This document shows, piece after piece, positions 22,073-27,338 of a stretch of DNA of 64,000 nt. The stretch's first letter is position 1, and every line of letters begins with the position of its first letter. Below the pieces are notes generated by a model, which saw only the letters and a program-made list of their open reading frames with translations, had not been told where the DNA came from and did no database searches. This DNA comes from Hydrogenothermaceae bacterium. GTDB lineage: Bacteria > Aquificota > Aquificia > Aquificales > Hydrogenothermaceae. A program made the translations under genes and the position numbers. Location of the stretch: the NCBI GenBank assembly GCA_026418455.1, contig JAOABH010000003.1:1-64000 (forward strand), written 5' to 3'.

Positions 22073-23128
22073 ATGATGAAAAAACTAGCAGTGGCAGGAT
22101 TAATATTAACAACAGGTATAATTTCTTACACAGTTGCAGAAAGTAAAATTAACGACAAAGATCTTCTTAACCAAGCAAAGAAATACTTCCAACCTCTCCC
22201 AAAAGAGATACCTGCTCCTTCTGATAACCCAACAACAAAAGAAAAAGTGGAACTTGGCAAGAAACTTTACTATGATCCAAGACTATCCTTATCCGGAGTT
22301 ATTAGCTGTAATACTTGCCACAACCTTGCAACTTACGGTGTTGATGGAGTAGAGACATCTTTAGGACACAAATTCCAAACAGGTGGGAAAAATGCTCCTA
22401 CAGTTCTAAATGCCGGATTCCATATCGCCCAATTTTGGGACGGAAGAGCCAAAACTCTTGAAGAACAGGCAAAAGGTCCTGTACTAAACCCTGTAGAGAT
22501 GTCAATGCCTAATCCTAATTTAGTAATTGAGAGATTAAAAACAATTGAAGGTTATGTAAATGAGTTTAAAAAAGCTTTCCCTAACGATAAAGAACCAGTA
22601 AATTATGATAATGTAGCTAAAGCTATAGCTGCCTTTGAAAGAACATTAGTAACACCTTCAAGATTTGACGAATTTTTAAAAGGAAATACAAAAGCTCTAA
22701 CTCAGAAAGAGAAAGAAGGATTAAAACTGTTTATGGAAAAAGGTTGTGCTTCCTGCCATAACGGAGTTGCAATAGGTGGAACAATGTTCCAAAAATTTGG
22801 TATAGTAAAACCATACAAATATCAAGATCCTAATGACCTTGGAAGATACAACGTAACCAAAAATGAAGCTGATAAATATGTTTACAAAGTCCCTTCTTTA
22901 AGAAACGTAACAAGAACATATCCTTACTTCCATGATGGAAAAGTTTGGGATATAAGGGAAGCTGTAAAAATAATGGGTGAAACTCAGCTTGGCATTAATT
23001 TAACAGATGAAGAGGTAGATAAAATAGTAGCATTTTTAGATTCTACAACTGGTAAAATACCTGAAGACGCTTTAAAGATGCCAGTATTACCTCCATCAAC
23101 TCCAAAGACACCAAAACCTCAGCTTTAA
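22073..23128 (+). CDS. Diheme cytochrome c peroxidase (CcpA/MauG family)
   Basis: Periplasmic enzyme that reduces hydrogen peroxide with electrons from small cytochromes. A signal peptide (KKLAVAGLILTTGIISYTVA) is followed by two heme c sites, CNTCH (residues 79-83) and CASCH (225-229). The NAPTVLNAGFHIAQFWDGRAKTLEEQA and MFQKFG..KVPSLRNVTRTYPYFHDG segments are typical. 351 aa, normal. Two ATGs lie in tandem (22073, 22076); the second is better spaced from GGAGG at 22064-22068. Maturation would need the CcsA-type system at 7562. Confidence 0.95.
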   Translation: MMKKLAVAGLILTTGIISYTVAESKINDKDLLNQAKKYFQPLPKEIPAPSDNPTTKEKVELGKKLYYDPRLSLSGVISCNTCHNLATYGVDGVETSLGHKFQTGGKNAPTVLNAGFHIAQFWDGRAKTLEEQAKGPVLNPVEMSMPNPNLVIERLKTIEGYVNEFKKAFPNDKEPVNYDNVAKAIAAFERTLVTPSRFDEFLKGNTKALTQKEKEGLKLFMEKGCASCHNGVAIGGTMFQKFGIVKPYKYQDPNDLGRYNVTKNEADKYVYKVPSLRNVTRTYPYFHDGKVWDIREAVKIMGETQLGINLTDEEVDKIVAFLDSTTGKIPEDALKMPVLPPSTPKTPKPQL

Positions 23129-23134
23129 AAAATA

Positions 23135-23154
23135 GGGGGCTTTTAGCCCCCCTT
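23135..23154. terminator. Bidirectional hairpin terminator
   Basis: A GGGGGC/GCCCCC stem with a TTTTA loop is followed by CTTTAATT on the plus strand. It sits between the convergent peroxidase and oxidoreductase genes. Confidence 0.8.
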
Positions 23155-23157
23155 TAA

Positions 23158-23853
23158 TTATCTATAATCGAAATAATCAACACCTCTCATAGCTCGATCA
23201 TTCCAGCCAGTTTTTTCCCAGTACCCCTTGTAATCATAATCAACCACTTCTATTTCTTTTATCCACTTTGCTGATTTATATCCCCATTTCTCGGGACATA
23301 CTACCCTAAGAGGATATCCATGGTCAAAGTTAAGTTTATCAAGAATTTTTCCATCTTCATCATAGTTTATGTTATATACCAAAATAGGTTTAAACTCTTT
23401 AACATATGATATTTCTATACTTGTATGGTAATCGTCAAATGATCTAAATACAATCTCTTTAGATTGTGGTAAAACTTGAACTTTTTCAAGAAGATAATTA
23501 AGATCAACACCTTCAACCAGAATTCTTCCTATCTTATCTCCTTTTGAGTTAGATACACACTCAAGGATAATCTCTCTCCTTACAGGTGGCATACTTTTTA
23601 TATCTTCCAAGGAAAGTGTAAGGGGATTTTTCACTTTACCGTAAATTTTAAGTTTATAATCTCTGATATTTAAATTTTTAACTGCAGACGGAATGCCTTT
23701 TATATCTACGATAAAAAGATTGTTTATTGGTGTATATTTACCAGGTGGAGGAAGTGCTGATTTTTGCTTTTTAAAAGCGTCAAAAATTCCAGCATAAACT
23801 TTTGGTGAGAATAAAGATATTAATCCAGTTAGTATAAATGTTCTTCTTTTCAT
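23158..23853 (-). CDS. Sulfite oxidase/MsrP-like molybdopterin oxidoreductase
   Basis: A 231-residue protein with a twin-arginine-like start (MKRRTFILTGLISLFSPKVYA), so probably exported folded. It has the sulfite-oxidase-fold molybdopterin domain, including a putative Mo-ligating Cys99 in ILECVSNSKGDKIG and the DHGYPLRVVCPEKWGYKSAKWIKEIEV stretch. MsrP (YedY) repairs oxidised methionine; other members oxidise sulfite or have unknown substrates, so the substrate here is open. It is shorter than E. coli MsrP and has no cytochrome domain. The gene follows a small membrane protein gene that could play the role of MsrQ. Confidence 0.85.
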   Translation of the reverse strand: MKRRTFILTGLISLFSPKVYAGIFDAFKKQKSALPPPGKYTPINNLFIVDIKGIPSAVKNLNIRDYKLKIYGKVKNPLTLSLEDIKSMPPVRREIILECVSNSKGDKIGRILVEGVDLNYLLEKVQVLPQSKEIVFRSFDDYHTSIEISYVKEFKPILVYNINYDEDGKILDKLNFDHGYPLRVVCPEKWGYKSAKWIKEIEVVDYDYKGYWEKTGWNDRAMRGVDYFDYR

Positions 23854-23862
23854 TTTATTACC

Positions 23863-24174
23863 TCAGAGTATGTGAAGATACATTAAAAATAAAATCAAAA
23901 TTCCGTTAAAAATTAAGAAGATAAACCATCTCTTTTTTACAAAATATTTCCTTAAACCTAAAGATGTGTGGAAAAGTATCAATACATAAAAGATAATTGG
24001 CAAAATGGATCCATGGAGGAGATAAGCATCTCTTCTATCTATCACATTACCAAACACATGACCTATTATCCTTGGTTTTTCAATCCAATAACCGGTAATT
24101 GCCTCGACTATAAAGATAAAATAAAGAATTATAGAGGTTACAATAAAGGCAATTTTTAACACCTGTCTGTTCAT
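23863..24174 (-). CDS. Small three-helix membrane protein, possible heme b partner
   Basis: A 103-residue protein with three hydrophobic spans (about residues 8-27, 55-70 and 82-101). His residues lie at or near the membrane (H39, H54, H68, H100), a pattern compatible with heme b binding in MsrQ-like or cytochrome b561-like proteins. It lies 9 bp upstream of the molybdopterin enzyme gene, and its ATG overlaps the stop of the 52-residue Cys-rich gene. A role in passing electrons between the quinone pool and the exported enzyme is inferred from context only. Confidence 0.6.
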   Translation of the reverse strand: MNRQVLKIAFIVTSIILYFIFIVEAITGYWIEKPRIIGHVFGNVIDRRDAYLLHGSILPIIFYVLILFHTSLGLRKYFVKKRWFIFLIFNGILILFLMYLHIL

Positions 24175-24329
24175 TTAATCTCTACCTTATAACTTTTTTG
24201 ACAACTACTATAAGAAGAACAGGAAGCACATTTTCCTTTTTGATAAACAGACTTAAACTTCCTATACAGGAAGTATCCAGCTACAATAAATATAAAGGCA
24301 GGTAGTATATAGTTTAAAATATTCTCCAT
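24171..24329 (-). CDS. 52-residue membrane protein with Cys-rich tail
   Basis: A short gene starting with ATG at 24329 after an AGAGG site. One transmembrane helix (about residues 4-22, NYILPAFIFIVAGYFLYRK) is followed by a basic stretch and a cysteine cluster, C34-A-S-C37 and C43, and the tail ends KVEIK. The layout resembles the small FeoB-associated Cys-rich membrane proteins, but no feo gene is nearby. The stop overlaps the ATG of the three-helix membrane protein (ATGA), so it is the first gene of a three-gene redox operon. Confidence 0.65.
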   Translation of the reverse strand: MENILNYILPAFIFIVAGYFLYRKFKSVYQKGKCASCSSYSSCQKSYKVEIK

Positions 24330-24387: not shown

Positions 24388-25152
24388 CTATGACAGAATG
24401 ACATCCAATATCATCATAAAAACAAAACCTACAAGAACGCCTATTGAAGCTGATACTTCAAATCCTTTTTTCTGTATCTCAGGAATCATCTCCTTTACAA
24501 CTACAAATAACATAGCTCCACTTGCAAAGGCAAATCCTACAAAAAGAAAACTCAAAAACGGATAAAACACACTAACAGCAAATATACCTCCAACCGGCTC
24601 AATTAAACCTGTTAAAAGAGCTATTTTAAAAGATTTTAATCTTGAGTATCCATAGAGGTACAAAGCAAGTGCAACTGCAAAACCTTCTGGAATATTTTGA
24701 ATACCTATGCCAAGGGCAAGGGTTATACCCTGATTTATATTCCCTGTCATAAACCCTAAAGCAGAGGACATACCTTCAGGAAAATTATGGAGGGTAATAG
24801 CAGCTACAAATAGCCAAACTTTCTTTAAAGACCTTTTTTCTTCCTCTGTCAAAACTTTAATAAAGTAATCTTCTGGTATAAACCTATCCAAAATGAGAAA
24901 CAGAAATCCTCCCCCTAAGAAAAATATGGATACAAGGGTTATTGAAACCTCTTTACTGAAACTTTCCTGAGACAACTCTAAAGCAGGAAGTAAAAGAGAA
25001 AAAAATGAGGCAGAAAGCATAATTCCGGCACTAAAACCCAGAAGAGAATCCTGCCATTTTGTAGAGATCTTCTTTCCAAAAAGAATAGGTACACCACCAA
25101 CTGCAGTTAGTAATCCGGCAAAAAGACTTCCTAAAATAGACTCTAATATCAT
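24388..25152 (-). CDS. ZIP family metal transporter (ZupT-like)
   Basis: A 254-residue integral membrane protein that would import Zn or other divalent metals. ZIP metal-site motifs are clear in TM4 (LHNFPEGMSSALGFM, about residues 120-134) and TM5 (IGIQNIPEGFAVALALY, about 149-165). It overlaps the sirtuin gene by 4 bp, so the two form an operon. A Fur-family regulator is encoded in the window at 44286, but I see no Fur-type box here. Confidence 0.92.
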   Translation of the reverse strand: MILESILGSLFAGLLTAVGGVPILFGKKISTKWQDSLLGFSAGIMLSASFFSLLLPALELSQESFSKEVSITLVSIFFLGGGFLFLILDRFIPEDYFIKVLTEEEKRSLKKVWLFVAAITLHNFPEGMSSALGFMTGNINQGITLALGIGIQNIPEGFAVALALYLYGYSRLKSFKIALLTGLIEPVGGIFAVSVFYPFLSFLFVGFAFASGAMLFVVVKEMIPEIQKKGFEVSASIGVLVGFVFMMILDVILS

Positions 25153-25988
25153 TCTAACAATTTCTTTATAGCTTCAAGTCCACCAAGAGCTATAGGTATA
25201 GCTTTTATATTTGACGGCACTGTGTAATCCCGTGGATTTATTCTTATAAGTGTCCCGTTATACTCTTTGGCAATTCTCTCTCCAAACCATCTGACAGTAG
25301 GTATAGCTTCTCCGGCTCCTATCTCTATAATTACAATATTTTTATCTTCATTCCTATTTAACCACAGATTAAGCCTAAACTCCTGTGATTCTGTTCTATC
25401 TGAAATCCAACTCCAATCTCCAAACATAAGGATATTAGGCCTTGCTATATCTCCACAGTTTACACATTTAGGTAGAGGATCTTTAGCTCTAAAATTCTCC
25501 ATATCTACTTCTATATCTATACTGTCCGCAGACCAAATATCATTACTGCAAGGTTTTATACACTGTAAATAATGGATACTACCATGTATCTCAACTATCT
25601 TGTTTTGATCAAAACAGGCTTTTTGAAACTGTCCATCTACATTTGATGTAAATATAAAATAATTATCTCCTTTTTTTCTGACAAAATCTCTAAGTAGATA
25701 AAACCCTTTATGTGGTTGAGTGTTTCTGTAAAGGTTCAATCTATGACCATAAAAAGCCCAAGCAAGGTAAGGATCCGCTTTGAACCATTTCGGATTAGCA
25801 AGTTCTTGAAAAGATAAACCTAATTTTTTGGCATATGGATATGCTCTCCAAAATCCTTCCTTTCCTCTAAAATCCGGAAGTCCGGAGTCAACACCCATAC
25901 CTGCTCCGGCTGTAATCAAAACAGCCTCAGCCAAATTTAAAGCTTCTTTTGCCTTCTCTATATTCTTTTCGATTTGCAAATTCTCCAT
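25149..25988 (-). CDS. Sir2-family NAD-dependent deacylase
   Basis: A 279-residue sirtuin that removes acyl groups from lysine using NAD. The NAD-binding GAGMGVDSGLPDFRG (residues 28-42), TSNVDGQ, the catalytic-His EIHGS and a Zn site (CIKPC..CVNCG) are all visible. The NAD loop reads GAGMGVDSG rather than the usual GAGIS..SG, which marks a particular bacterial subgroup. It lies 6 bp after pgi and overlaps the ZIP gene. Confidence 0.92.
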   Translation of the reverse strand: MENLQIEKNIEKAKEALNLAEAVLITAGAGMGVDSGLPDFRGKEGFWRAYPYAKKLGLSFQELANPKWFKADPYLAWAFYGHRLNLYRNTQPHKGFYLLRDFVRKKGDNYFIFTSNVDGQFQKACFDQNKIVEIHGSIHYLQCIKPCSNDIWSADSIDIEVDMENFRAKDPLPKCVNCGDIARPNILMFGDWSWISDRTESQEFRLNLWLNRNEDKNIVIIEIGAGEAIPTVRWFGERIAKEYNGTLIRINPRDYTVPSNIKAIPIALGGLEAIKKLLE

Positions 25989-25994
25989 GACTCT

Positions 25995-27338
25995 TTATAT
26001 CTCAAGTAGATGAGTAATTTTACTTAAATTTTTATATTCATTTAATTTCTCTTCATATCCTTTTCTTCCCATCAAACCGTAAGCAAAATTTTTACCTTCT
26101 TCCACTGCAGGCTGGTCAAAAGGATTTACCTTGTATAGTAATCCGGAAAATCCTGTAGCCATCTCGTATAGATATATCAAAAGTCCTATATTAAAAGGAG
26201 AAGGTTTATCCAATGTTATTGTAAGATTTGGCACCTTGGCTTTAACTAACGCTGCCTTTGTACCTTCAAGCTCTATATCCAAAATCTGTTTTAAAGTTTT
26301 ACCTTTAAGATATTCAAGGTCAGTAGGAATATCACCAGTTATCTCAAAATCCCTAAAACTTTCCTCAATATTCAAAAATGTAACTATCTTATCTTTTGGT
26401 CCATCTATATACAGCTGTATCTGGGAATGTTGATCTATTGACCCTATAGATTTTACAGGAGTTTGACCTAAACCTTCCTTTCCTAAGCTTTCAGCCCATA
26501 GCTGTCTATACCAATTTACAAAGGAAGAAAGTCTCTCACTGTAAGCCATCATAACGGATATAGTTTTTCCCTTTTTAACATTGGCTATGTAGTGGATTAA
26601 GCCTATAAGGTAAGCCGGATTACCAAAAGGGTCTATACTCTTTTCACAGAGTTGATAGCCATACTTTGCACCTTCAAGAAGCTCATCTATATCTATACCA
26701 CATACAGCAGCAGACAACAATCCAACATTACTTAAAACAGAAAATCTTCCACCGAGATTAGGAGGAATGTCAAAAGATTCTATCCCCTCCTGATTGGCAA
26801 ACTTTCTTAAAAATCCTTTTTCAGGGTCTGTAGTTATTATGATATGTCTCTTCCAATTATCTCCTATAACTGTCTTTAACATATCAAGAACTATTAAAAA
26901 GTTAGCAACAGTCTCAACTGTGGAACCTGACTTTGTAATCACATTAAAAATCGTTTTTCTCACATCTATCTGATCCATAACAAGAGCAAATTTCTCCGGA
27001 TCAACATTATCCAGAACATAAAATTTAGGAAAATTTTTTAAATTGTAATCAAGACCATTTACGGCATCTTGAACTGTTTGATTGCCAAGAGCAGACCCAC
27101 CTATACCTACAACCACAAAACAATCAAAATTTTCCTTTATTTTCCTTGCAGTTTCTTTAATCTTTGATATGTCCTGAAAAGGCAAATTCATAAAGTAAAA
27201 ATCTTTATCTTTTCGATTGTAAATTTCTTTATGTAAATCTAAAATTATCTGTCTATAAGCCTCTATCTCTTGAACCAGTATTCCTTCCCTTTCACCTAAC
27301 TTTTCAGACATTACATTTGAGTAATCTATCTTTATCAT
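25995..27338 (-). CDS. pgi: Glucose-6-phosphate isomerase
   Basis: Interconverts glucose-6-phosphate and fructose-6-phosphate. Sugar-phosphate binding motifs VVGIGGSALGNQTVQD (about residues 76-91) and NVITKSGSTVETVANFL (about 131-147) are typical, as are GGRFSVLSNVGLL and the later QLWAESLGKEG. 447 aa fits the shorter bacterial form. It begins the pgi-sir2-zip run and is divergent from the PEGA lipoprotein gene, with a TATAAT element upstream. Confidence 0.96.
   Translation of the reverse strand: MIKIDYSNVMSEKLGEREGILVQEIEAYRQIILDLHKEIYNRKDKDFYFMNLPFQDISKIKETARKIKENFDCFVVVGIGGSALGNQTVQDAVNGLDYNLKNFPKFYVLDNVDPEKFALVMDQIDVRKTIFNVITKSGSTVETVANFLIVLDMLKTVIGDNWKRHIIITTDPEKGFLRKFANQEGIESFDIPPNLGGRFSVLSNVGLLSAAVCGIDIDELLEGAKYGYQLCEKSIDPFGNPAYLIGLIHYIANVKKGKTISVMMAYSERLSSFVNWYRQLWAESLGKEGLGQTPVKSIGSIDQHSQIQLYIDGPKDKIVTFLNIEESFRDFEITGDIPTDLEYLKGKTLKQILDIELEGTKAALVKAKVPNLTITLDKPSPFNIGLLIYLYEMATGFSGLLYKVNPFDQPAVEEGKNFAYGLMGRKGYEEKLNEYKNLSKITHLLEI

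Follow-up and report, generated by a model that had tools for sequence, protein, structure and literature searches.

The last two genes of a same-strand run in a Hydrogenothermaceae genome constitute a two-gene module and are an evolutionary unit. One encodes an exported molybdopterin oxidoreductase of the sulfite-oxidase (SUOX) fold, the other a protein of 103 residues with three transmembrane helices (3-TM). The unit was recognized from identical sets of ten genomes within the phylum, joint losses of both genes, and recurrence of the pair in other phyla. With a probability slightly above one half, the pair is read here as a minimal MsrPQ-like relay, i.e. a two-component molybdo-oxidoreductase of the cell envelope in which b haem would link the Mo centre electronically to the quinol pool. 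Among SUOX-fold enzymes, many from environmental bacteria and archaea have yet to be characterised (group 3 in PMC7759655), and one of them is given a definite partner by co-occurrence, joint loss and recurrence. The pair also yields a concrete prediction: haem-borne electron transfer is the task of a protein of about 100 residues whose family matches all stay below cut-off. No paper describing the pair by its title or the start of its abstract was found in the literature searched. The window, that is the whole 64,000-nucleotide stretch analysed, belongs to contig 8 (C8) of a genome of 1.54 Mb. Features are listed in Table 1.

Table 1. Features of the window and of the remote loci carrying related gene pairs
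Feature	Position	Strand	Remarks
MauG/CCP-type di-haem cytochrome	22073..23128	+	Convergent, outside the operon; PF03150, 196.6 bits
Bidirectional terminator-like hairpin	23134..23153	.	8 pairs on the minus and 7 on the plus strand
SUOX-fold molybdopterin oxidoreductase, 231 aa	23158..23853	-	PF00174; predicted Tat-exported
3-TM protein, 103 aa, putative small b-type cytochrome	23863..24174	-	H54-x14-H69; weak PF01292
Cys-rich single-span protein, 52 aa, FeoB-associated-like	24171..24329	-	Weak PF12669
ZIP/ZupT-type metal transporter	24388..25152	-	PF02535, 93.1 bits (cut-off 35.1)
Sir2-type protein	25149..25988	-	PF02146; 4-bp overlap with ZIP gene
Phosphoglucose isomerase-like (PGI) gene	25995..27338	-	First gene seen in run; PF00342, 106.6 bits
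Tandem-SUOX protein (~392-408 aa)	L006 4350-5537		H-x14-H 3-TM gene directly upstream; Thr for Cys
Tandem-SUOX protein (~392-408 aa)	L008 610-1791		H-x14-H 3-TM gene directly upstream; Thr for Cys
Tandem-SUOX protein (~392-408 aa)	L157 1791-2969		As above; Thr for Cys
Tandem-SUOX protein (~392-408 aa)	L158 317-1543		As above; Thr for Cys
Tandem-SUOX protein (~392-408 aa)	L159 1791-2969		As above; Thr for Cys
Tandem-SUOX protein (~392-408 aa)	L160 1778-3004		As above; Thr for Cys

The run comprises the PGI, Sir2, ZIP, Cys-rich, 3-TM and SUOX genes, all on the minus strand and separated by 6, -4, 58, -4 and 9 bp, respectively; the 3-TM gene overlaps the Cys-rich gene by 4 bp and the SUOX gene lies 9 bp beyond the 3-TM gene. 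The run is closed by a hairpin in the space between SUOX and the MauG-type gene convergent with it, and this hairpin is shared by both. Promoter-like sites were about as frequent as in shuffled sequence (23 versus 21.7). The sequence-only reading had presented the Cys-rich, 3-TM and SUOX genes as a three-gene redox operon. Its coordinates, lengths, spacing (with the gaps recomputed) and C-x2-C-x5-C motif were confirmed, and the genes are real; its boundary was wrong, the three being the end of the longer PGI-to-SUOX run, of which it had not noted the upstream ZIP, Sir2 and PGI genes or the closing hairpin. The comparison with relatives that it had proposed was run, and the neighbourhood proved to be conserved: the order ZIP, Cys-rich, 3-TM, SUOX was kept in six genomes, and the order including the Sir2-type gene was kept in the same-genus MAG L004.

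The phylum was surveyed in 136 genomes with profiles for the SUOX (7 rows), 3-TM (10 rows) and Cys-rich (6 rows) proteins and with one ZIP sequence. The SUOX subtype was present in ten of them (G000, G001, G002, G006, G008, G012, G015, G019, G025 and G031) at 333-445 bits, the next best score being 114 bits. The 3-TM protein was detected in the identical ten genomes and in no others at E values up to 0.01. The two genes were adjacent in 7/10, and lay on different contigs with unrelated neighbours in G006, G012 and G019. Three genera are mixed for the pair (g5, 1/6 genomes; g6, 2/3; g8, 4/7). Matching at random within genera would produce such concordance with a chance of 1/630, or of 1/18 for the two genera with unlinked genes only; both figures are rough, genomes being treated as exchangeable and assembly gaps ignored, and the co-occurrence is inflated because the genomes are related to one another. 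Both genes were also lost together. In G021 SUOX and 3-TM are both gone, and about 40 bp lie between the MauG gene, which is intact, and the end of the Cys-rich gene; in G028 an intact Cys-rich gene is followed by a 3-TM stump joined to two short SUOX pieces. The pair is thus gained or lost together while the Cys-rich gene stays. The ZIP gene of G028 is broken too, a sign of operon decay (L153 2243-2733; L154 863-1125). An assembly gap of the kind ignored above is seen in G033, a genome with a completeness of 82% in which the contig breaks off where the ZIP gene ends.

The arrangement recurred outside the phylum. Two loci found through SUOX, in a Spirochaetota record (L006) and an Actinomycetota record (L008), carried a 3-TM gene of 101 and 104 codons for amino acids, respectively, directly upstream of SUOX. 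The remote 3-TM homologue matched the Aquificota 3-TM protein in hhalign with an E value of 1.9e-5 and a probability of 78%. When a joint 3-TM profile was searched over 296 genomes of each of Spirochaetota and Actinomycetota, six further matches at E < 1e-13 were obtained beyond the two starting genomes. In four of these six (L157-L160) an intact SUOX gene followed the 3-TM gene directly, one (L148) adjoined a decayed SUOX remnant (E 5e-4), and one (L147) had none, the last two weighing against the two-component reading; L149 and L150, weak A6 matches (E 7e-5 and 9e-4) with internal stop codons, were left out of the counts. A gene for an NAD-binding flavoprotein was located just upstream of the 3-TM gene in L157, L158 and L159, with NAD_binding_1 above cut-off in all three. 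All six remote SUOX relatives, the flavoprotein-linked ones included, had Thr (LETISNP) at the position of the Mo-ligand Cys.

The window SUOX protein consisted of a single PF00174 domain scoring 110.1 bits against a cut-off of 24, which places it in the family. Neither a haem domain nor a dimerisation domain was found in it, in agreement with the earlier description of a short enzyme lacking a heme domain. Near its start it has a twin-arginine motif, KRRTF; in this position twin Arg was present in eight and Lys-Arg in two of the ten family members. The Mo-ligand Cys is C99; in 10/10 members this residue falls opposite the Cys of SorA-like P0005 in the alignment; C99, a second Cys (C186) and W217 were invariant throughout the ten. 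In the SUOX tree the ten proteins formed one clade (100/99); the placement of MsrP was unreliable, with 22% of columns filled. The structure model of the protein was of modest confidence (pLDDT 71).

SorA (2blf) was the nearest solved chain by both sequence and fold, and SorA also gave the best NCBIfam match. The scores against the SorA, SoxC and SorT equivalog models were 67.1, 59.3 and 21.8 bits, all below the respective cut-offs of 600, 420 and 570. The protein was aligned to SorA chains, including the R55M and Y236F entries, with regard to R55, H57 and Y236, the substrate-pocket Arg, His and Tyr of SorA. The segment bearing R55 and H57 corresponded to IVDI[KS]G, without Arg or His, in all ten members, and the equivalent of Y236 was W217 in each, the aligned entry 2c9x (Y236F) confirming the position. 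Another SorA/SoxC-like protein encoded in the same genome (L001) keeps the R-x-H and Tyr positions. The window enzyme therefore resembles SorAB and SoxCD in its fold, in its Mo-ligand Cys and in having them as its nearest solved sequences, but differs from them in the three pocket residues, in the lack of a detected dimerisation domain, and in having no cytochrome c gene beside SUOX in the operon. With the pocket residues missing and scores below the SorA, SoxC and SorT cut-offs, a canonical sulfite oxidase is not favoured.

These comparisons bear on the direction of catalysis. The same SUOX/3-TM unit could work oxidatively: outside the cytoplasm, SUOX would oxidise reduced sulfur or another compound, and the electrons would reach quinone through the 3-TM protein. 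This direction is a serious rival, albeit an unlikely one: the proximity to SorA, a sulfite dehydrogenase, speaks for it in the solved chains and in the 67-bit NCBIfam match, whereas the absence of the Arg, His and Tyr equivalents, a score far below 600, and the presence in the same genome of L001, which retains R, H and Y, speak against it. The sequence-only reading had offered a sulfur-oxidising module as one of its options, to which the active-site residues lend no support.

The 3-TM protein had three spans by hydropathy and the Cys-rich protein one in all relatives tested, as previously described for the window copies. The charge of the 3-TM protein was +2 to +3 at the N-terminus, -1 to +2 in the first loop, +2 to +6 in the second and 0 to +1 at the C-terminus, from which an N-in/C-out topology is predicted. 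In the structure model (pTM 0.46) helices were placed at residues 3-27, 29-40, 47-78 and 83-102. Eighteen residues were invariant over the ten genomes, H54, H69 and H101 among them; the conservation of His, which the sequence-only reading had made a test of its proposal, therefore held in 10/10. H54 is at the outer-side start of helix 2 and H69 towards its inner side, and H101 is at the outer end of helix 3. When the remote group (24-29% identical to P0002) was included, TGY, R47, H54 and H69 were invariant in 18/18 aligned homologues; H101 was not kept in the remote group. The H-x14-H motif as such is not rare: among 187 control ORFs of 80-130 aa, which include copies of the family, 52 had it, so only its conservation counts.

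Cytochrome b561 (PF01292) was matched weakly by eight of the ten Aquificota members at E values up to 1 (best 1.2e-4); the single score seen was that of L029, 15.2 bits against a cut-off of 30.1. Like the prokaryotic b561 proteins, of which the superoxide oxidase CybB is an example, the 3-TM protein has a His pair about 14-15 residues apart in one helix. Unlike them it has three helices and about 100 aa rather than four helices, and its profile gave no significant hhalign match to the E. coli b561 proteins CybB and YodB (probability 1%). The hhalign comparison with MsrQ was likewise not significant, and 0 matches were returned by both a fold search of the model and a profile search against the PDB. 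These negative comparisons with haem-bearing structures and MsrQ, along with the weakness of the PF01292 matches, would suit a protein without haem that serves SUOX as a membrane anchor or maturation factor and uses its His for structure or metal binding. We consider such a role improbable, since H-x14-H is kept in all 18 homologues despite the low identity of the remote group, and a flavoprotein gene accompanies the pair in a remote system. The 3-TM protein is probably a b-haem carrier.

The relay proposed for the pair resembles MsrPQ (YedYZ) in joining an exported SUOX-fold Mo enzyme without a haem domain of its own to the gene of an integral membrane partner, and in the FNR-type flavoprotein gene found with some remote relatives of the pair, as MsrQ uses Fre. 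It differs in that the partner is a 3-TM protein of about 100 aa and not a ferric-reductase-domain protein, and in that the SUOX protein, at 231 aa, aligned with only 24% identity to E. coli MsrP and scored 51.3 bits against MsrP model NF003767, far below its cut-off of 207. The MsrQ-type domain PF01794 (Ferric_reduct) was detected in 0/41 genomes of the family, that of the window included, while the E. coli control was positive. True MsrPQ membership was rejected on these two grounds.

In the relay that we infer, the SUOX protein would be exported folded by Tat and hold Mo-pterin through C99. The 3-TM protein would lie in the membrane N-in/C-out and most likely bind b haem via H54 on the periplasmic side and H69 on the cytoplasmic side. 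Di-haem b cytochromes have a spacing similar to this H-x14-H within a single helix, which suggests a homodimer; two copies would then probably supply bis-His pairs, and H101 may be a further ligand or a quinone contact. Quinol would deliver electrons to the 3-TM protein, whose b haem(s) would pass them to Mo and so to an oxidised compound on the outer side of the membrane. The reductive direction appears the most likely, as in MsrPQ, with methionine sulfoxide as the leading candidate substrate. The analogy is with the Fre-MsrQ-MsrP chain (PMC11031084; PMC7759655), whose electron path, described in PMC11031084, is matched by the flavoprotein gene upstream of the pair in L157, L158 and L159. The flavoprotein gene of the remote group points to cytosolic NAD(P)H as the electron source, i.e. 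to the reductive direction; as the remote SUOX has Thr at the Mo-Cys position, its chemistry may differ and this indication transfers only partly. MsrA was absent from 37/41 family genomes whether or not they had the pair, so the pair is not a simple replacement for MsrA. The absence of MsrA and of MsrQ-type proteins leaves room for a repair role of the pair and does not show one.

A broader proposal is put forward tentatively, and is doubtful as it stands: the three-helix cytochromes of about 100 residues might constitute an unnamed family of dimers with two b haems (one H-x14-H helix each), serving as a general small SUOX partner in several phyla and as the smallest MsrPQ-like transmembrane relay, with one branch driving Thr-SUOX.

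The sequence-only reading had proposed an alternative minimal MsrPQ-like module in which both small proteins carry electrons or metal. The part concerning SUOX and the His-bearing 3-TM protein is upheld by the shared genome sets, joint losses and recurrence. The Cys-rich protein as a third redox partner had to be dropped. It was absent from G006, G012 and G019, in which the pair is present, lay on a different contig from the pair in G002, and persisted in G021 and G028 after the loss of SUOX and 3-TM. Its C-terminal side carries a net charge of +4 to +7, and in 6/6 members the N-terminus is predicted to be outside and the Cys motif (C34-x2-C37-x5-C43 in the 52-mer) cytoplasmic, opposite to the Tat-exported SUOX. 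A module of three, with the Cys-rich protein as a further carrier of electrons or metal for SUOX, for which the 4-bp overlap with the 3-TM gene and the order conserved in six genomes could be adduced, is therefore highly improbable given its independent distribution in both directions and a predicted cytoplasmic motif facing away from a periplasmic enzyme.

Although encoded in the operon, the Cys-rich protein can be separated from SUOX and 3-TM. It was found in 27 genomes at E < 1e-8, most of them without the SUOX/3-TM pair. ZIP was present at 7/27 loci, always directly upstream as in the window, six of these having the pair and one (G021) lacking it; a constant association with ZIP was accordingly rejected. 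Fourteen loci (L074, L077-L085, L087-L090) were near IscA, mostly with HemJ and with no SUOX or 3-TM gene, and six had none of the query genes nearby. Between G015 and G025 the Cys-rich gene showed a dN of 0.047 and a dS of 0.97, hence it is real and under purifying selection. The translation of tiny PF12669-like genes is treated as an open question in PMC8749426, and these values provide codon-level evidence that such genes are real.

The window protein (P0003) scored 22.9 bits against PF12669, the FeoB-associated Cys-rich family, below the cut-off of 27, and the match was weak in all six operon members (best 3.8e-6). It resembles that family in being short, with a single span and a C-terminal Cys cluster. 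It differs in its motif, C-x2-C-x5-C versus the Cx3-5Cx2-3Cx6-8C given in PMC8749426, and in that the window copy stands beside a ZIP gene and not FeoB. Pairing of the window copy with FeoB was rejected: FeoB was present in 114/136 genomes but not beside the window copy, which is at C8:24174, while the only FeoB_C match of the genome is at C8:353498, so that the gene is not downstream of feoB. We infer that the Cys-rich protein may assist the ZIP transporter of this operon in metal handling, the two forming a co-encoded but separate metal-uptake pair.

The MauG/CCP-type gene was tail-to-tail with the SUOX gene in seven of the ten genomes having SUOX, which is possibly mere shared gene order. 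In G012 the neighbour on the other side of SUOX was a DsbD_2-family membrane protein (L043 2206-2835; PF13386, 150 bits) and not the 3-TM gene. SUOX proteins with C-terminal membrane helices were encountered in the archaeal Thermoplasmatota (L007 4905-5927, L014 4854-5933 and L016 4893-5918). The helices of L007 matched DUF4079 above cut-off and those of L014 and L016 were judged by eye; they appear to be a fused membrane partner.
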